Both the position numbers and the translations under genes were made by a program. Shown here piece by piece: positions 6,536 through 51,991 of a stretch of 64,000 bases of DNA. The stretch lies in the NCBI GenBank assembly GCA_021730945.1, contig JAKFYH010000054.1, forward strand, positions 1 to 64,000, written 5' to 3'. The notes under the pieces were generated by a model. That model had not been told where the DNA came from and made no database searches. It saw only the letters and a program-made list of their open reading frames with translations. Numbering within the stretch: the first letter of the stretch is position 1; each line of letters starts with the position of its first letter. Source of the DNA: Acidobacteriota bacterium (lineage in GTDB: Bacteria; Acidobacteriota; Vicinamibacteria; Vicinamibacterales; UBA2999).

Positions 6536-9349
6536 CTACTGTGACGGGGGTATTCCGGCGCCGGTCAGCACTTTGACGATGTCCTGCCAGCGATTGGGTG
6601 ACACCTTGCGAATGACGTCCTCGGCTTGCCGCGTCCACTGCTGGCCGGCGGCTTCCACGTTCTTCTTCGTGTGCGCAACGAACGCGTCGGTATACCGGGA
6701 CTGATTGAACCGCTGCTCCACCGCCCACACCGCCCACTGCTTGATCGAGTCGGTATAGGCGGCGGGGTTGCTGTCGGGCCGGAGCAGTCCGGCGTGCTCG
6801 ACCCGATAGGCCGCCTGCAGCACCCGATTCATGGGCGCGAACTTTTGCTGCACGGCCGGCGGCGCCAGCCGCAGGATGGTGCCGGGCCGGGGCGGGGCCT
6901 TGAGTAATTCCACGCAGTACGCCGACAGTTCGAGCCGCACGGGCGCGGCCTTGGCCAGCCGTGAGAAGGCCTGCTGCACGCGTTGCTGCGCCTGCTGCCT
7001 GATCGGCTCGACCGCAAACGGCATGGACGACAGGCGGGCCGGCTTGCCGCTCAGGTTCAGGACCTGCAGCGTGAGGGTTTTGCCGGTCGAGCCGCCGGCG
7101 TCGCTCAACAGCAGGTGCACACCAGCCGGAAGCCCCGAGGCCTGGCCGCTGCTATACGGCGCGATGGCGGCGAGATCGCGTGGACTGATCAAGGGCGCCG
7201 GCCCGATGCTGCCGCGCCAGCGATCGACAGCCTGGGTCAGCGTGCGCGCCAGCAAGCCCAACGGGTTGAACCACGACCGCACCTCCTGCCGCGGCACCGG
7301 CGGAATCCACACGCCAGCAGCCGGTGGTTTCGACCATGTCGGGATACCGGGCGTCACGTTGAGGCGCTCTCGATACATCTCGCTGGAGAACTGCTGGAAG
7401 TCGAACGGGTCGAGAATGTCGACTTGCTTGACCTGAAACGCCGGGTCGGCGTCGCAGCCATCACACCCCCACGGTAACGGGCTGGTCAGGTCGATGCAGG
7501 TTTCACCCACGCCGCATGGCGGCGGCGAGCAGGTGCCGGGCACCCCGCAATCGGACTCGACCGGCGTGCAGGTGCCAGACTCTGCACACGACTGCCATTG
7601 GTCGGCACAGTCGCTGCCGAAGCAGGCGGCCGGCGGTGGTTCGCTGGCGCTGGCGGTCGTCTTGCACTTCTTGTTGCAGGCGGCCAGGGCTTCTGCCAGC
7701 TGCGCCAGCTTCGCGCGTTGCTCTTCGAATGCATCGAAGTCCGACTGCCGCTGCAAGTCGTTGGCACGCCGGGCCAGATCCTGAAGAGCGCGGTGCGCCG
7801 TGCGGAGCTGATTGGCCAGTGGCTCGCACTCCTTGCACGCCGCGATCGGCGTGATCGGATCGACGGTCACGGTTCGGTCTGCCGGACGCGTGCCCGTGCC
7901 GCCGGCGACGGCGACACCCCCCGTATCCCCAGCCCCGGTGGTGGCGCACTTGCGGTTACAGTCATCGAGCGCGGCTCTTGCCGTGGCGATCTCGGCCGTC
8001 AGTCGATCGATTCGCTGTTGATGACTGGCGCGCTCGCCGCGCAGCCGATCCTGAAACTCACGCAGCTCGGCCGCCCGTGCCTCAATCTCCTGCAATCGCG
8101 CGGCGACGTTCTGTTCGCCGGGCCGGTTGACGATGGCGCGATCGGTGGCCAGCCGGTCGCCAGAGATCATGCTGACATCGATTGCCGCCTGGGTCCGGTC
8201 TCGTTCCGCGGTCGCCGTCTGCCGGTCGCTGTTCAATCGGGCCAACTGCTCGGCTAACGCGGCGCAGTCCGGGCAGGCCGCGGGCGGCTGGGAGGTGGGC
8301 GCGACCGATGGCTCAGGTCGCGAATCGGTCACCGCGGTACCGGCATTGGCCGTCGTCGCGGTCTTGCAGCGATTCTCGCAGTCGATGATCAGCTTGATGA
8401 GGTCGGCGATCCGCCGGGTCTGCTCGGCAATCTCGACCTCGATCTCCTCCAGCCGGCGCCCGTCGCGCTCGACGCCTTCCTGCTGGTCCTTGTTCACATC
8501 CGTGAGACTGTCGATCTCCTTCTGGCGGGCGGCGCTGGCGGTGGAAAACAGTTGCTGGTATTCCAGGCGGGCGATCTCGTTGGCGCGATGGCCCATGGCG
8601 TTCTCGGTGATCGAGATGCCCTTGAGCAGCGCGAGCTTGCGGTCCCAGAGATAGTTGAGCGTGTCGTAGGCGCTGTTGGCCTTGTCGGCCAGGCCGGTGC
8701 ACTCCTTGCACAGCACGTGGACCTGGCGATGCGGCGGCTTCCTGAACTGCTGCACATTGGGCACGTCATTGATCCAGCCGTCCGGCGGATTCTCCAGATC
8801 GGGCGGCAACGGCCCCAGGTCGCCCGGGTCGTCAAAGGCAATGACATGGCTCATGTGCACTTCGAGTTCGGGATTCCAATCCGGGTACGACGCATTGGTC
8901 TTGCTGTCGTCATTGACATCGGGACAACACTGGCACCGCGTGGCGGTGTTCATGATGTAGAAGGCCTTGATCTTGCCGGCCGCCAGCTCGTCGCGCACCT
9001 GGCGCTCGCTTTGCGGATCCCAGCCAAAGGTGTGTGAGGTCCAGCGCCGGCCATTGGCGTCGGTCGGCGCGTTGTCGTCGTCGTTGTAGACAACCTTGAT
9101 GCCGAAGCTGTCGGAGGCATTCTCGACACACGCCACGCACTCCTCGCGGTCGAGCAGCGACAGGAAGCGCTCGGGAAACCCGCGCTGGCGCATCTGGGCT
9201 TTCTTGGCTTCGCGCACCCGGTTGGTGGCGGCTGGGTCGCGGCGATACCGCGGGCCGCAGTTGTCGTTGGGATTCTGGGCCGACAGCGCGTGGTCGCCGG
9301 CCATCCCCATCATGAGGAACGCGAAGAATACGAGGGGCCACCGTCGCAT
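6536..9349 (-). CDS. Large secreted protein with three Cys-bracketed coiled-coil modules
   Basis: No family is recognised. The 937-residue product has a signal peptide (residues 1-24, ending ALSAQ). Three similar modules follow an N-terminal region: CKEC at 214-217 to CENRC at 324-328, CPDC at 359-362 to CNRKC at 464-468, and CKEC at 505-508 to CNKKC at 558-562. Each starts CxxC(x)3L(A), runs through 58-115 residues of heptad-rich helix, and ends CxxxC followed by KT or AT. A Cys-rich, EGF-like stretch (about 575-640) and a C-terminal alpha/beta region follow. This suggests rigid, disulfide-stapled helical hairpins in the periplasm or outside. The second of two tandem start codons (GTG-ATG) is used, five bases after GGAGG. 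Confidence 0.8.
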   Translation of the reverse strand: MRRWPLVFFAFLMMGMAGDHALSAQNPNDNCGPRYRRDPAATNRVREAKKAQMRQRGFPERFLSLLDREECVACVENASDSFGIKVVYNDDDNAPTDANGRRWTSHTFGWDPQSERQVRDELAAGKIKAFYIMNTATRCQCCPDVNDDSKTNASYPDWNPELEVHMSHVIAFDDPGDLGPLPPDLENPPDGWINDVPNVQQFRKPPHRQVHVLCKECTGLADKANSAYDTLNYLWDRKLALLKGISITENAMGHRANEIARLEYQQLFSTASAARQKEIDSLTDVNKDQQEGVERDGRRLEEIEVEIAEQTRRIADLIKLIIDCENRCKTATTANAGTAVTDSRPEPSVAPTSQPPAACPDCAALAEQLARLNSDRQTATAERDRTQAAIDVSMISGDRLATDRAIVNRPGEQNVAARLQEIEARAAELREFQDRLRGERASHQQRIDRLTAEIATARAALDDCNRKCATTGAGDTGGVAVAGGTGTRPADRTVTVDPITPIAACKECEPLANQLRTAHRALQDLARRANDLQRQSDFDAFEEQRAKLAQLAEALAACNKKCKTTASASEPPPAACFGSDCADQWQSCAESGTCTPVESDCGVPGTCSPPPCGVGETCIDLTSPLPWGCDGCDADPAFQVKQVDILDPFDFQQFSSEMYRERLNVTPGIPTWSKPPAAGVWIPPVPRQEVRSWFNPLGLLARTLTQAVDRWRGSIGPAPLISPRDLAAIAPYSSGQASGLPAGVHLLLSDAGGSTGKTLTLQVLNLSGKPARLSSMPFAVEPIRQQAQQRVQQAFSRLAKAAPVRLELSAYCVELLKAPPRPGTILRLAPPAVQQKFAPMNRVLQAAYRVEHAGLLRPDSNPAAYTDSIKQWAVWAVEQRFNQSRYTDAFVAHTKKNVEAAGQQWTRQAEDVIRKVSPNRWQDIVKVLTGAGIPPSQ

Positions 9350-9471
9350 CACTTCCTCCGTGACCGCGGGCAGCGCGGCCTGGGCAGATGCTCGGCCTTT
9401 CCCGGGTCAGCGTCAAGCGCTTTTCCGCCCTCGGGTGCGCCCGCCCGCGGGGCGGTGTCCCGAGGGGGGAT

Positions 9472-9484
9472 GATATGATTCCGT
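9472..9484 (+). promoter_or_regulatory. Candidate -10 region upstream of the ECF sigma gene
   Basis: GATATGAT (TATGAT core) lies about 35-40 bases before the ATG at 9519, just after a GC-rich inverted segment (CCGCCCGCGGGGCGG). No clear -35 box is visible. Confidence 0.3.
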
Positions 9485-9518
9485 TCTGGAGGACGGCTCG
9501 TCCTTCGCCCACTGACAC

Positions 9519-10118
9519 ATGCCTGATCCTTCGCCAGCCCCTACCGAGGCCATCGACACGCTCATTGCGAACTGCCTGGGTGGCGACCAGACGGCGTGGG
9601 AGGACATTGTCCGCCAGCACCGGCGCAAGGTCTTCAACATCGCCTACAAGTTCACCGGCCGGCACGACGAGGCCGAGGACCTGACGCAGGACATCTTCCT
9701 CAAGATCTTCAAGTCGTTGCACACTTTCGACCGGCGCGCCAACTTCCAGACCTGGCTGGTCAGCGTGAGCCGGAACCTGTGCATCGACCACTACCGCAGT
9801 GTCCGCAAGGAGCGCGAGACCATCGACCGCGACGTCGACGCCGGTGAGTTGATGCCGGCCGCGCCCGGCCAGAACGCCTACCAGGCGCTCGAGCAGGCCG
9901 ACCGGGTTGAACTGCTGCGCAAGGCCATGGCCGGCTTGCCGCCGACGCTGCGCGACGCGGTGGTGAAGCGCGACCTCCAGGAGCTGTCGTACCAGGAAAT
10001 CGCCGACCAACTGAACCTGCCGGAAGGCACCGTGAAATCACGCATCAATCGCGGCCGCACCGAACTCGCGCGCCAGGTGCAGCGCATTCGAGAGGAAGAC
10101 GAAGGGGTAAAGGGATGA
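9519..10118 (+). CDS. ECF-family RNA polymerase sigma factor
   Basis: The 199-residue protein has region 2 (about 25-95: HRRKVFNIAYKFTG, DEAEDLTQDIFLKIFK, FQTWLVSVSRNLCIDHYR) and region 4 (about 125-185: LPPTLRDAVVKRDLQELSYQEIADQL, PEGTVKSRINRGR). This is the RpoE/SigW type that directs RNA polymerase to a stress or envelope regulon. Unusually, the next gene, overlapping by four bases, codes a STAS protein rather than a zinc-finger anti-sigma factor. No anti-sigma gene is adjacent, so control may be through partner switching. Confidence 0.93.
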   Translation: MPDPSPAPTEAIDTLIANCLGGDQTAWEDIVRQHRRKVFNIAYKFTGRHDEAEDLTQDIFLKIFKSLHTFDRRANFQTWLVSVSRNLCIDHYRSVRKERETIDRDVDAGELMPAAPGQNAYQALEQADRVELLRKAMAGLPPTLRDAVVKRDLQELSYQEIADQLNLPEGTVKSRINRGRTELARQVQRIREEDEGVKG

Positions 10119-10456
10119 ATCTGACGACCGACCGTGCACAAGGCGTCGCCATTGTTCGCATTGGTGAGACCCGACTGATGTATCCGCTGCTGGCCGATTT
10201 CTCCGGCGCGGTCATGTCACTGCTGACCGCCGGCGACAAGAAGGTCATGCTCGACCTGTCACAGGTCACCTACGTCGACTCGGCCACCATCGGCTGCCTG
10301 ATGGATCTCTATCGCCAGACGGCGGCGGCCGGCGCCGAGCTGCGGCTGGCCGGGGTCAACAAGCGGGTCGAGACCATGCTGACCATGACCGGCGCCCACA
10401 ACTTCCTCAAGATGTTCCCGGACGAGGCGGGCGCGCTCCTGAGCTTCGGGAGCTAG
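10115..10456 (+). CDS. STAS-domain protein, anti-sigma-factor-antagonist type
   Basis: The 113-residue protein is a single STAS domain (SpoIIAA/RsbV fold). The core KVMLDLSQVTYVDSATIGCLMDL holds the conserved Asp-Ser pair (VDSA), where the Ser is the usual phosphorylation site. Such proteins release a sigma factor by binding its kinase-type anti-sigma factor. The ATGA overlap with the ECF sigma gene implies coupled synthesis. No RsbW-like kinase is present in the window, so its partner must be elsewhere. Right after its stop TAG come three GATGACACA repeats. Confidence 0.88.
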   Translation: MNLTTDRAQGVAIVRIGETRLMYPLLADFSGAVMSLLTAGDKKVMLDLSQVTYVDSATIGCLMDLYRQTAAAGAELRLAGVNKRVETMLTMTGAHNFLKMFPDEAGALLSFGS

Positions 10457-26660: not shown

Positions 26661-27551
26661 ATGGACGAGGCGCGGGCGGCACGCCTGTATCGAGACGCCG
26701 ACGGTGGGCGCTGGGACCTGCCGGTCGAGGCCTTCGTCGAGGCGCTGGAGCGGAGCACCGCCAAGGCGCTCGCCGGCCGCCCCGCCGGGGCGTCTGAGCG
26801 CGATCGCTACCTCGCCTCGCTGCACCTGGCCGACCTCGCACTGGCCTGCGCCTGTGCCCGCGGGCACGAGGCGGCCTGGGATCACTTCGTCGCCCAATTC
26901 CGGCCGGCCCTTTATCGCGCGGCAGACGCACTCGATGCCAGCGGCGGCGCCCGTGAGGTGGCCGACGCCTTGTACGGGGAACTCTACGGCGTTCGAGAGC
27001 GCGAGGGCGGACGCCAGTCACTGTTTCGCTACTTCCATGGCCGCAGCAGCCTCAGTACCTGGCTGCGGTCGCTGGTGGCCCAGCGCTATGTCGACCGCAT
27101 TCGCGAAGTGCGGCGGCTGGCGCCGCTGCCCGAAGACTCGTCGCCGGCGGCCCTGCCGGCGCCGCCGGCACCACCCGACCCCGACCGCTCGCGATTCGCA
27201 GCGGCCATGCGCGCGGCGCTGGGCACCGCCATTGCCGCCCTGGCGGCCCGGGACCGGCTGCTGCTCGGCTGCTACTATGCGCAGGAGATGACGCTCGCCC
27301 AGATCGGACGGCTCACGGGCGACCACGAAGCCACGGTGTCGCGCCACCTGGCGCGCACGCGCCGGGAGATCCGCGCGGCGGTCGAACAGCTCCTGCGCGA
27401 CAAGCACCACTTCGGCGACCGGGAAATCACCGAGTGCTTCGCCAGCCTGGCGGCCGAAGCCGGGCCGATCAACCTCGACGATTGGCTGGCCCCACCGGCC
27501 GCGCGCAAGAAATCCCTCGCCGCCCGTTCTAACCTTGAGGACCCCTCGTGA
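26661..27551 (+). CDS. ECF-like sigma factor
   Basis: The 296-residue product has sigma region 2 (about 75-150: AWDHFVAQFRPALYRAA, LYGELYG, SLFRYFHGRSSLSTWLRSLVAQRYVDRIRE) and region 4 (about 185-245: LAARDRLLLGCYYAQEMTLAQIGRLTGDHEATVSRHLARTRREI). An N-terminal ~70-residue helical extension and a short C-terminal tail are additional. The GTGA overlap with a zinc-finger anti-sigma gene is the classical arrangement and supports the call. Confidence 0.88.
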   Translation: MDEARAARLYRDADGGRWDLPVEAFVEALERSTAKALAGRPAGASERDRYLASLHLADLALACACARGHEAAWDHFVAQFRPALYRAADALDASGGAREVADALYGELYGVREREGGRQSLFRYFHGRSSLSTWLRSLVAQRYVDRIREVRRLAPLPEDSSPAALPAPPAPPDPDRSRFAAAMRAALGTAIAALAARDRLLLGCYYAQEMTLAQIGRLTGDHEATVSRHLARTRREIRAAVEQLLRDKHHFGDREITECFASLAAEAGPINLDDWLAPPAARKKSLAARSNLEDPS

Positions 27552-28453
27552 ACGCCGAACGCGATCGCGATTCGCTGTTGGAACGCGCGCTCAAGCGGGA
27601 AATGAGCGCGGAGCGCGAGGCTCCGGCCGGCGACGCCTGTCTCGACCCGGAAACGCTGGCCGCGTGGATGGACGGTGGCCTTGATGCCCACTCGCTGGCG
27701 TTGGCCGAGGCGCACGCGTCGAGTTGCGCGCGGTGCCAGTCCCTGGTGGCCACGCTGGTCCGCACCCTGCCGGCAGAGCCGGCGGCAGCGCCAGCGGGCA
27801 TGCGCCTGTGGCGGTGGTGGTTCGCGCCAGTCGCGGCGACCGCGGCGGCGGTGACCCTCTGGATGGTCGTGCCACCGCAACCGGTGACCGCACCCGATCA
27901 AGCCGAGTTAAAGACATTCGCGTCGGCGGAAGCATCGGTCGACCCGGTCACGCCGGCACCGGCACCGGCTCCAGCCGCGACCTTTGGCACGCCGCAGTCG
28001 AGTGCTGCGCAGGTGGGCCAGAGAGTGCGGGAGCGCGCGGAGGCGCCCGCCTCACCCGTGGCACCGGCCAGGGCCGACGCCGCCAGGCGCGGCCTGGCTG
28101 AACCCGAAGTCCTCGAACCGAAGGCCGAAGCCCCCCAACTGCGCGACAACGCGGCCGAAGGGCGTTTGACGGCCGCGGCCCCTCCAGCTGCGACCGGGGC
28201 CAACCGGGCGCAGCAGGACAGGGACGACTTCACGGCGCGCGCGGCGCCCTCGCCCAATGTCATCTGGCGGGTCGGTCGCGCTGGACTGGTGCAGTTGGCC
28301 ACCGACGGCCGCACGTTCGTGAGAATCGCATTTCCGGAGGCCGTCGACCTCACCGCCGTCACGGCCACCGACGAGCGTCAGGCGAAGGTAACCACCGCCG
28401 ACGGCCGGACATTCCAGACGGCCGATGGCGGCCACACCTGGCAGCGGCCGTAG
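27548..28453 (+). CDS. Zinc-finger anti-sigma factor with C-terminal sensor-like domain
   Basis: The 301-residue protein begins with a zf-HC2-type anti-sigma domain (AEAHASSCARCQSL, HxxxCxxC, about residues 57-67) followed by one membrane helix (WWFAPVAATAAAVTLWMVV). A long Ala/Pro/Glu linker leads to a periplasmic end (WRVGRAGLVQLATDG, DGGHTWQRP) like a single repeat of BNR/photosystem-II-type propellers. It likely holds the overlapping ECF sigma factor until a signal outside is sensed. Start GTG overlaps the sigma stop. Confidence 0.85.
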   Translation: MNAERDRDSLLERALKREMSAEREAPAGDACLDPETLAAWMDGGLDAHSLALAEAHASSCARCQSLVATLVRTLPAEPAAAPAGMRLWRWWFAPVAATAAAVTLWMVVPPQPVTAPDQAELKTFASAEASVDPVTPAPAPAPAATFGTPQSSAAQVGQRVRERAEAPASPVAPARADAARRGLAEPEVLEPKAEAPQLRDNAAEGRLTAAAPPAATGANRAQQDRDDFTARAAPSPNVIWRVGRAGLVQLATDGRTFVRIAFPEAVDLTAVTATDERQAKVTTADGRTFQTADGGHTWQRP

Positions 28454-28636
28454 GGCGGGCCTGCAGCCCTTCTGGGACTCGGTCCTTCGGACCTTCGTGG
28501 GGCTCGGGCGCTTCGCGCCCTCGTGGGGGGGAAATGCTCGTCCCCACGAACGCGGTGAGCCCCAGGACGCTCGCGTAGCGAGCGACACCGACGAGCGCCG
28601 CAGGCGCGAGTCCCACCGGCTGCAAGAAATCCCGCC
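28454..28636 (+). other. 183-nt multibranch structured element
   Basis: It begins right after the TAG of the anti-sigma gene. Perfect stems: 28454-28459/28631-28636, 28462-28468/28618-28624, 28473-28480/28608-28615 as outer helix; inside are hairpin 28481-28493, stem 28499-28505/28557-28563 enclosing hairpins 28506-28520 and 28521-28549, then hairpins 28568-28584 and 28595-28607. Four of the hairpins have 3-base loops. It could be an RNA, a DNA repeat element, or a complex terminator. The rest of the gap to 28694 has nothing clear. Confidence 0.75.
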
Positions 28637-28694
28637 GACCCCGTTCTAAGGGAAAGGGCCACGAACGGCCCCCAATTCTCAAGGAGCGGTTCCC

Positions 28695-30191
28695 ATGTCT
28701 GCACGCACGTATCTCGCGTCCCTGGTCGTTGTCGGTGGCGCGCTGCTGATGCGGCCCGAAACCCAGCCGGTGCTGCTGGCCGGGCCAGAGGTGAACGACG
28801 CGGCGCCGGCGACCGGCGGCGACCAGGATCTGACGACGACCCTGGACGACCAGTCCGAACTCGCCATCACGGTTTACAACTCCGATATCGCGCTCATCCG
28901 CGACGTTCGCAACCTGCAACTTGCGCGCGGCACGGGCAACCTGCGATTCATGGACATTGCCGCCACGGTCAACCCGGCGACCGTGCATTTCCGGTCGCTC
29001 ACCGACCCCGCCCGCGTCCGTGTGCTCGAGCAGAACTACGAATACGACCTGCTTGAACCGGACAAGCTGCTGCGGAAGTACGTGGGGCGCGAAGTGACGC
29101 TCATGCGGAATCGTCAGGACGGCGGCACCACCCGGCAAGAGGAAGTGAAGGCGCTGCTCCTGAGCTACAACGCCGCGCCGGTCTGGAAGATCGGCAGCGA
29201 AATCGTCACCGGAATCGGCGCCGACCACATTCGCTTCCCGGAACTGCCGAGCACCCTCTATTCGCGGCCGACGCTGATCTGGACGGTAGCCAATGACGGC
29301 GCCGCCCGCCACCGGGTCGAGGCGTCCTACCTGGCCGGCAAGCTGGCCTGGAACGCCGACTACGTGCTCACGGTCTCGCGCGACGACAAGCTGGCCGACC
29401 TCAATGGCTGGGTGACGCTCACCAACGGGAGCGGCACCGCCTTCCGCAACGCCAAGCTGCAGTTGGTGGCCGGCGACCTGAACCGCGTTCGCCAGCAGTT
29501 CGGCAAGATGGAGATGGCGCTGCACGAGCGTCGCGACGCCGCGGCCCCAGCCGTCAACATGGCCGAGGAGTCGTTCTCGGACTATCACCTCTACACGCTC
29601 GGACGAAAGACGACCATCAACAACAACCAGACCAAACAGGTCAGCTTGCTCGAAGGCACCGACGTGCCGGTGATCAAGCGCTACGTCGTTGAGGGGCAGG
29701 CCTTCTATTACCGCAATCAACAGCACCCGGGGTCGCCGATCAAGGATCTGGTGCAGGTTTACTACCAGTTCAAGAACGAGCAGAAGGGCGGCCTCGGCAT
29801 TCCCATGCCGGCCGGCGTGCTCCGCGTCTATCAGGAGGACTCCAAGGGCGGCGTGCAGTTCGTGGGTGAGGACCGCCTGACGCACACGCCGAAGGACGAG
29901 ACGCTGAACGTGAAGATTGGCAACGCCTTCGACGTGGTGTGCGAACGCAAGCAGACCGACTTCCAGAAGATCGCCAGCAACGTCTACGAGATGGAATACG
30001 AGGTCACCCTGCGCAACCACAAGGCGACCGCCGTCTCGGTGGAGGTCAACGAACCGCTGGGGGGCACCTGGCGGATGATTCGCTCATCGCACGAATGGAC
30101 CAAGACCGACGCCTGGGCGGCGCAGTTCCATGTGCCGGTCGCGGCCGACGGCGCGGCGGTGCTCCGCTACCGGGTGCGGGTGACGTACTGA
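28695..30191 (+). CDS. Secreted DUF4139-type protein
   Basis: The 498-residue protein starts with a signal-like hydrophobic stretch (residues 3-20). It then shows features of the DUF4139 family: ITVYNSDIALIRDVRNL, FMDIAATVNPATVHF, YNAAPVWKIG, WTVANDGAARHRVEASYLAGKLAWNADYVL and the late LRNHKATAVSVEVNEPL. The fold is beta-rich; function unknown. CAAGGAG lies ten bases before the ATG. Confidence 0.85.
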   Translation: MSARTYLASLVVVGGALLMRPETQPVLLAGPEVNDAAPATGGDQDLTTTLDDQSELAITVYNSDIALIRDVRNLQLARGTGNLRFMDIAATVNPATVHFRSLTDPARVRVLEQNYEYDLLEPDKLLRKYVGREVTLMRNRQDGGTTRQEEVKALLLSYNAAPVWKIGSEIVTGIGADHIRFPELPSTLYSRPTLIWTVANDGAARHRVEASYLAGKLAWNADYVLTVSRDDKLADLNGWVTLTNGSGTAFRNAKLQLVAGDLNRVRQQFGKMEMALHERRDAAAPAVNMAEESFSDYHLYTLGRKTTINNNQTKQVSLLEGTDVPVIKRYVVEGQAFYYRNQQHPGSPIKDLVQVYYQFKNEQKGGLGIPMPAGVLRVYQEDSKGGVQFVGEDRLTHTPKDETLNVKIGNAFDVVCERKQTDFQKIASNVYEMEYEVTLRNHKATAVSVEVNEPLGGTWRMIRSSHEWTKTDAWAAQFHVPVAADGAAVLRYRVRVTY

Positions 30192-50254: not shown

Positions 50255-51991
50255 ATGGACACCTTGCAGCCCAATGGCCGGCGCCGCGGACGCGGCCTCT
50301 GGCCGACGTGGCGTGGTTCCACTGCCCTATTGACCGCGGCCATCCTCCTGGCCTGCGCCAGCTCGGCTCTGGCCGGCAACCGGCGCGCGCGGCTGTCGTC
50401 TGACCTCACGGCGCATCTCAACTCGAGCTCGTCGGCTGCGGTCGATGTGATCGTCTCGGGATCGCAGGAGCGGATTGACCGCCTGGTGAAGCGTCACGGT
50501 CTCAAGGTGAAGAAGGTGCTCTCGTCGGGTGCCGTCTTGCGGGTATCGCGACGGGCGCTTGAATCGCTGGCCAACGACCTGGATCTCGAGGCCGTGTCCG
50601 GCGATGCGATCGTGCGGTCGATTGACCAGGGCAGGGCTCGGGGCACAGGGGCCAGCGCGGCCTCCCCCACGGGCGTGGGAGCCGCCGGCCTGACGGCGGA
50701 GGTGATTGGCGCCGACGCCGCGTGGGCGGGCAGCATCCAGACCCTTGGCGCGGTGGATGGGCGCGGCATTGGTGTGGCGATCATCGACAGCGGGATTGCC
50801 GACCATCCGGCGCTGCGCGACCGGGTGGTGGCGGCCGTGGATTTCACCGACCCCCGGGGCCGCGGCCACGACAGCTACGGGCACGGCACGCACATCGCCG
50901 GCATCATCGCGGCGCGGTCGTTCAAGAACACCGCCGAGGGCGCCGGCAGCGGCATGGCGCCTGGAGCGCACTTGATCAGCCTGAAGGTGTTGGGCGCCGA
51001 CGGCACGGGCATGGCCAGCAGCGTGATCGAGGCGATCGATTGGGCGATCCGTTATCGCAAGCCATTTGGCATTCGCGTGTTGAACCTGTCGTTGGGAGCG
51101 GCGCCGACGCAGAGCTACAAGGACGACCCGCTGTGCCAGGCGGTCGAGCGGGCGGTGAAGGCCGGGCTGGTCGTGGTGACCTCGGCGGGCAACTACGGCA
51201 CCAACGAACAGGGCCAGTTGATTTTCGGCAGCGTCACCTCGCCGGGCATCTCGCCGTATGCGATCACGGTCGGGGCCGTGCGCACGCAGGGTACGGCGGA
51301 CAAGTCGGATGACGAGGTGGCGCCGTGGAGTTCCAAGGGCCCGACGCTGGTGGATCACATTGTCAAGCCCGACCTGGTGGCGCCCGGCTCCAAGATCGTG
51401 TCGACGGCGGCGGCGGCGGCGACGTTGATGACGCAGTTCCCGGAGCGCTTCATCGACGGCCCCGGCGCGCGCGACTACTTCTCGATGAGCGGCACCAGCA
51501 TGGCGGCGGCCGTGGTCAGCGGAGCGGCGGCGCTACTGCTTGACGGGCGCGGTGACCTGACGCCACTGCAGGTGAAACTGGCGCTGCAGGCCAGCGCCGA
51601 CTTCATGCCGTCGGCCGGCTTGCTGGCAGGTGGCGCGGGGAGCCTGGATCTGGAAGGGCTGGAGGCAATTCTAGACAAGGTTCGAGTTCTAGACGCAGTC
51701 GGACCGCGCGCATTCGCATACCCTGGAGCTGCCAAGTCCCTAGTCGATTCGAACACCATCATCTGGGGTGACACCATCATCTGGGGCGACACCATCATCT
51801 GGGGCGACACCATCATCTGGGGCGACACCATCATCTGGGGTGACACCATCATCTGGGGTGACACCATCATCTGGGGCGACACCATCATTTGGGGTGACAC
51901 CATCATTTGGGGTGACACCATCATTTGGGGTGACACCATCATTTGGGGTGACACCATCATCTGGGGCGACACCATCATCTGGGGCGACTAA
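50255..51991 (+). CDS. Secreted S8 subtilase with C-terminal (TIIWGD)13 repeat
   Basis: The 578-residue protein has an Arg-rich N-terminus and signal helix (STALLTAAILLACASSALA), a propeptide-like region (about 45-140), and a subtilisin catalytic domain with Asp178 (IIDSGIADH), His210 (YGHGTHIAG) and Ser415 (SGTSMAAAVVSG). Residues 501-578 are 13 perfect TIIWGD hexapeptides up to the last codon. The repeat may form a beta-solenoid or be a sorting/adhesive tail. From about codon 470 the base composition drops and rare CTAG appears, matching the following genes. Start ATG at 50255, after GGAGA, is preferred over TTG at 50204. Confidence 0.93.
   Translation: MDTLQPNGRRRGRGLWPTWRGSTALLTAAILLACASSALAGNRRARLSSDLTAHLNSSSSAAVDVIVSGSQERIDRLVKRHGLKVKKVLSSGAVLRVSRRALESLANDLDLEAVSGDAIVRSIDQGRARGTGASAASPTGVGAAGLTAEVIGADAAWAGSIQTLGAVDGRGIGVAIIDSGIADHPALRDRVVAAVDFTDPRGRGHDSYGHGTHIAGIIAARSFKNTAEGAGSGMAPGAHLISLKVLGADGTGMASSVIEAIDWAIRYRKPFGIRVLNLSLGAAPTQSYKDDPLCQAVERAVKAGLVVVTSAGNYGTNEQGQLIFGSVTSPGISPYAITVGAVRTQGTADKSDDEVAPWSSKGPTLVDHIVKPDLVAPGSKIVSTAAAAATLMTQFPERFIDGPGARDYFSMSGTSMAAAVVSGAAALLLDGRGDLTPLQVKLALQASADFMPSAGLLAGGAGSLDLEGLEAILDKVRVLDAVGPRAFAYPGAAKSLVDSNTIIWGDTIIWGDTIIWGDTIIWGDTIIWGDTIIWGDTIIWGDTIIWGDTIIWGDTIIWGDTIIWGDTIIWGDTIIWGD
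51755..51988 (+). repeat. 13 tandem 18-nt repeats encoding TIIWGD
   Basis: The unit is ACCATCATCTGGGGCGAC. Copies differ only at synonymous third bases (GGT/GGC, ATC/ATT), in blocks: copies 8-11 are all ATT...GGT. That pattern suggests recent expansion with selection on the peptide. Confidence 0.97.

Follow-up and report, generated by a model that had tools for sequence, protein, structure and literature searches.

A composite hairpin array at the 3′ end of a putative anti-sigma factor gene in Acidobacteriota, best explained as a genus-level variant of REP-like repeats

The closest described counterparts of the array reported here are the GTAG-tagged REPs (Di Nocera et al. 2013, PMC3733652), extragenic palindromes that carry GTAG or GTRG at one end, lie near the 3′ ends of co-directional or convergent genes, form head-to-head dimers of the BIME/REPIN type, accept alternative complementary residues in their stems and reach about 100 copies. 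It was also reported that their GTAG ends often provide TAG stop codons, and it was suggested that the unlike stems of neighbouring REPs avoid the removal of long perfect palindromes (PMC3733652). The same work described CGTC-tagged REPs, which resemble the present repeats in being palindromic and devoid of an associated transposase gene, but bear another tag sequence. Another related system is the Group 3 REPtron of Marinomonas (REPMb; PMC8266576), comparable in its short perfect stem of 5 bp with a 4-nt loop and a GTAG nearby, which is cleaved by its TnpAREP; its REPs cluster by tnpAREP and are placed 2 nt from GTAG, neither of which applies here.

An array whose family resembles the GTAG-tagged REPs in location, supply of stop codons, head-to-head composites, stem variation and copy number, and carries a GTRG set farther from the stem, was found in a 64,000-nt stretch of an Acidobacteriota genome, hereafter the window (contig JAKFYH010000054.1, positions 1 to 64,000), where it occupies positions 28450..28618 of the + strand. 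It is preceded by the genes of an ECF-type RNA polymerase sigma factor (26661..27551, +) and of a putative anti-sigma factor (27548..28453, +) with a weak zf-HC2-like N-terminus and a TAG stop supplied by the repeat, and the next gene downstream codes for a DUF4139-like protein (28695..30191, +; 31.6 bits against a cut-off of 31.8). With a probability of about 0.83, this element belongs to a family of REP/BIME-like, non-autonomous palindromic DNA repeats that is confined to the genus, and the array is best explained as a variant of REP-like repeats at the genus level. In contrast to the GTAG-tagged REPs (PMC3733652), its conserved 12-nt linker separates GTRG from the stem by 5 nt, the 5-6-bp stems vary freely in sequence, same-direction tandem arrays predominate, and no adjoining RAYT was found.

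The initial annotation had described the 183 nt at 28454-28636 as a closed multibranch fold and proposed comparing its energy with that of shuffled sequence. The RNA minimum free energy (MFE) of this stretch was −115.6 kcal/mol, against a mean of −86.1 (sd 4.45) for 200 dinucleotide shuffles, none of which was equally low (z −6.63; opposite strand, z −6.43), and the MFE structure recovered the listed stems together with all the 3-base hairpin loops TTC, TTC, GTA and GCA. The closing helix (28473..28615, +) pairs a linker, TGGGACTC at 28473-28480, with an inverted linker, GAGTCCCA at 28608-28615. Within it, the hairpin GGTCC-TTC-GGACC (28481..28493, +) is followed by the linker TCGTGGGGCTCG (28495..28506, +), which is identical to the family linker and contains the GTRG motif. 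A second pairing of forward and inverted linkers forms the inner stem (28498..28564, +; TGGGGCTC at 28498-28505 with GAGCCCCA at 28557-28564), which encloses the hairpin GGGCGC-TTC-GCGCCC (28506..28520, +; match to covariance model R1 at 28497-28528, E 1.9e-5) and the central hairpin TCGTGGGG...CCCCACGA (28521..28549, +), the point at which orientation switches, present also in the orthologues L188 and L208. The inverted half carries the hairpins CGCTCGC-GTA-GCGAGCG (28568..28584, −), kept as GCGAGCGTAGCGAGCG in L208 and in the C7 copy, and GCGCC-GCA-GGCGC (28595..28607, −); all these hairpins and stems belong to the MFE structure.

The limits of the element differ from those first proposed. 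The stretch does adjoin a stop codon, but the element opens earlier, as its left end GTAGGGC (28450..28456, +) takes in the TAG of the anti-sigma gene (28451-28453). Similarly, three outer helices are present in the MFE structure, but the two outermost draw their right arms (GGCTGCA...CCCGCC, 28618-28636) from TGCAAGAAATCCC...CGTTCTAAG, a block preceding the DUF4139 gene; since this block is conserved in array-free relatives, these two helices represent the repeat paired with non-repeat DNA. The right boundary near 28618 is approximate, being placed by comparison with the array-free loci L190 and L107. Beyond it lies a promoter-like block, GCTGCAAGAAATCCC...CCGTTCTAAG (28619..28650, +), kept in relatives with or without an array, which may act as the promoter of the DUF4139 gene. 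Blocks like GCAAGAAATCCC...CGTTCTAA were observed both at 28619-28650, upstream of this gene, and at 27507-27533, where the sigma-factor gene ends, and their similarity could reflect an autoregulated ECF promoter; a promoter and terminator scan returned no matches.

The array is not alone in its genome, since the 183 nt gave 48 BLAST matches at E≤1 within the 4.73-Mb genome and a covariance model detected at least 96 units there, contrary to the absence of other copies that the initial annotation had named as a refuting condition. The best composite match (C7:30201-30337 in G000, this genome) showed 76% identity over 146 of the 183 nt (query 20-165). The repeating unit consists of the 12-nt linker TCGTRGGGCTCG and a GC-rich hairpin of 5-6 bp, with a period of 24-25 nt, or 18 with a mini-stem; GTRG occurs in nearly all units, 5 nt from the stem and thus farther than in described REPs, and the outer ends are often GTAG. 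Exact tandem units were found at C10:96785-96886 (period 18) and at C1:49232 and C18:2039 (period 25). An inverted half often comes after the forward units, so that the whole array folds back on itself, and such head-to-head composites (++-- and +- arrays) fold as single structures. A separate 18-nt tandem repeat, GACACCATCATCTGGGGC, was noted at 51750-51990 of the window, apparently coding (repeated DTIIWG) and apparently ending at a TAA stop, its sequence being unrelated to the hairpin arrays.

The exact linker TCGTRGGGCTCG occurs 46 times in this genome, against 8 for a reversed-pattern control, and short GC-rich segments lie between successive linkers. When 56 such segments were picked by their flanking linkers alone, 49 paired into a perfect, flush stem of 4 bp or more, compared with 9% of shuffled and 41% of half-swapped segments, and the stem sequences were varied (GGCGC, GCGCC, GCGGC, GGGGC, GCCGC, GGGCC and others). 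Covariation, which the initial annotation had suggested testing, was evident: linkers were constant while stems differed between copies and still paired. Among 39 distinct units, 99.5% of cells were paired, covariation reached 0.596 against 0.138 in shuffled sets, and double-sided changes numbered 47 against 18.8, values attained by none of 500 shuffles. Because this set had been chosen partly for clean alignment, the fairer figures are those of the 49 of 56 segments and of 19 less strictly selected units, with 96.8% of cells paired and a covariation of 0.648 against 0.229.

The position of the arrays relative to genes was established in a local census of 768 kb of this genome, comprising the stretches around BLAST- or pattern-detected arrays and extra regions, with gene calls from a simple codon-usage caller and not a published one. 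Of 40 array calls, 34 were intergenic and 6 lay within predicted genes; the intergenic arrays were placed between co-directional (17), convergent (13) and divergent (4) gene pairs, and among the divergent cases two span about 2 kb in which genes may have been missed. Moreover, TAGGGC was found at 13 of the 33 gene ends situated up to 80 nt from an array and at 15 of the 611 other gene ends (Fisher p 3e-11). The GTAGGGC terminus thus often furnishes the TAG stop codon of the adjoining gene, in agreement with the published remark on GTAG REPs, for which the 3′-end location was likewise described (PMC3733652).

Comparison of orthologous sites revealed gain and loss of arrays. The block TGCAAGAAATCCC...CGTTCTAAG is kept in relatives with and without an array, and just upstream of it G005 and G001 (L188 and L208) carry arrays of similar layout and different stems, with strong folds (z −8.0 and −6.5, respectively). 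No array was found at this site in L190 and L107. At the same position L106 and L113 present other GTAG-tagged hairpins, GTAGCGCGGAACTTTAGTTCCGCG (near 2920-2960) and GTAGTGTCCGGCTTCAGCCGGAC (near 2690-2770), respectively, so that one intergenic site has received three kinds of palindromic repeat. Filled and empty sites were also paired elsewhere: G005 L259:4870-5200 (TGGTAG) against G000 L076:8045-8640 (TGGTAA), and G005 L256:4960-5200 against L089, in both cases with TAG opposed to TAA, whereas L264 and L085 share a common site with unlike stems and tandem number. These filled, empty and stem-swapped sites indicate that arrays were gained or lost between species and that stems change while pairing is kept; no signature of target sites was recognised. 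A second repeat, like TTCCACCTTCGCCAAGGCTACGGCGGACA, was observed in or beside the hairpins of some G005 and G006 arrays (L262:4500-4550, L265:1390-1430, L259:6640-6710 and L260:4970-5000).

Such changes might also arise by palindrome expansion with no transposase involved, in which units would multiply through slippage and template switching during replication, spread by recombination at shared linkers, and regain arm complementarity by intramolecular quasi-palindrome correction. The exact tandem units, the constant linker beside wholly different stems in L264 and L085, and the lack of units near RAYT genes agree with this account, which is possible if rather doubtful: arrays are dispersed over around 30 separate gene ends and in many cases share the GTAGGGC terminus, which, together with several filled and empty sites, calls for some route to new sites.

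A functional 3′ UTR element, whose hairpins would make the mRNA upstream more stable or dampen read-through under selection on RNA pairing, would account for the placement of arrays after stop codons and for pairing that survives sequence change, the low energies of the orthologous arrays included. However, the same site in relatives is empty or holds unrelated hairpins, there is no U-tract terminator, and a mechanism acting on DNA would preserve pairing too, which makes this explanation unlikely. The terminator option of the initial annotation is disfavoured, as a GC hairpin followed by a U-run was looked for and no site was found in 27500-29500. The ncRNA option also raised earlier, taken here as a dedicated structured ncRNA or a riboswitch acting on the sigma/anti-sigma/DUF4139 module, is highly improbable despite the strong multibranch fold lying between the anti-sigma gene and the promoter-like block, because at least 96 units occur elsewhere in the genome, the stems are free in sequence, the element is not conserved as a gene and is missing from the same locus in some relatives, and the Rfam covariance-model scan gave no match in the window.

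A family of REP-like DNA repeats is further consistent with the distribution across genomes. The covariance model detected at least 96 units in this genome, at least 80, 61, 57 and 17 in four congeners and 8, 4, 1 and 0 in the other four, all counts being lower bounds because no more than 150 candidates were scored in each genome; two genomes of other genera in the family yielded 3 and 1 weak units. A strict double-linker pattern gave 33, 15, 10, 3 and 1 matches in five species of the genus, and outside it single matches in 4 genomes among 184 others from the class and in three from a phylum sample, one of them common to both; none of the matches listed in these class and phylum samples forms the stem. 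As judged from these sequence searches, the family appears restricted to the genus, with almost nothing elsewhere except scattered unpaired pattern matches. Viral contigs gave 19 pattern matches, none of which forms the stem, and these are apparently due to chance.

The suggestion that the array is a REP-like element moved by a RAYT-type transposase was upheld in its first part, by the dispersed copies, the GTRG stop-codon end, the location at gene 3′ ends, the head-to-head composites and the filled and empty sites, but not in its second, as no RAYT-type gene was found flanked by these arrays. This genome holds five Y1 (PF01797) genes, with no linker or unit found within about 1.5 kb of any of them. 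Around 44 RAYT-type genes from 9 genomes of the genus (45 loci, one gene having been counted twice), no covariance-model match was found within about 1.5 kb, which leaves the RAYT step unproven; in L216, an element lying about 165 nt from a RAYT was noticed by visual inspection only. Searches of RAYT flanks by linker, GTAG hairpin and model showed that they carry other hairpin families and not these arrays, such as GTAGCGACGGCTAAAGCCGTCGC palindromes near the L033 RAYT, a protein that scores above the NCBIfam cut-off for REP-associated transposase, and GTGGCGTCCGGCTTCAGCCGGAC hairpins near L228 and L233. In L098 (G000:C10:36000-55500, about 8800-10400) and L033, a REP-associated tyrosine transposase gene lies amid tandem GTAGCGACGGCTAAAGCCGTCGC palindromes, for which 36 pattern matches were counted in the stretches taken from this genome, spaced by 37 nt where seen. 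In a tree of Y1 proteins, one clade occurs in the five high-copy species (G000, G001, G005, G006 and G007) and not in G003 or G004; its neighbours in the tree are G002 (8 copies) and a G008 protein on a long branch (0 copies). Much of this pattern follows ancestry in the LpxC tree, so the match is suggestive only, and this clade can be considered a lead to a candidate mobiliser.

In the mechanism that we favour, each unit comprises the GTRG-containing linker TCGTRGGGCTCG and then a short hairpin of free sequence in which pairing is kept. Units multiply either in tandem or in head-to-head composites whose GTAG ends point outward, and settle between genes near 3′ ends, where the GTAG end often becomes the stop codon. 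They would spread as single-stranded DNA hairpins through a Y1/HUH (RAYT-type) transposase acting in trans, and would be retained where gene 3′ ends tolerate them. Described REP enzymes recognise GTAG and a short palindrome, in one case a 5-bp stem with a 4-nt loop (PMC8266576), which suits a family with free stem sequence, and if, as published for neighbouring REPs (PMC3733652), unlike stems avoid the removal of long perfect palindromes, this could explain the diversity of stems. At the RNA level, the array would do no more to the anti-sigma mRNA than a generic hairpin at a 3′ end, and it lies upstream of the putative promoter of the next gene.

A more tentative idea, which we regard as somewhat improbable, is that inheritance is limited to the linker and to pairing as such, stems being swapped or rewritten as modules that remain perfectly self-complementary. 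If true, it would imply either a transposase that reads structure plus the 12-nt linker or a replication process in which one arm is rewritten from the other. These arrays extend REP-like, GTAG-associated biology to an uncultured genus of Acidobacteriota and offer a clean natural dataset, with constant linkers, variable paired stems, filled and empty sites and three palindrome types at one site, which makes it testable whether recognition depends on structure and whether selection or a copying mechanism maintains arm complementarity.
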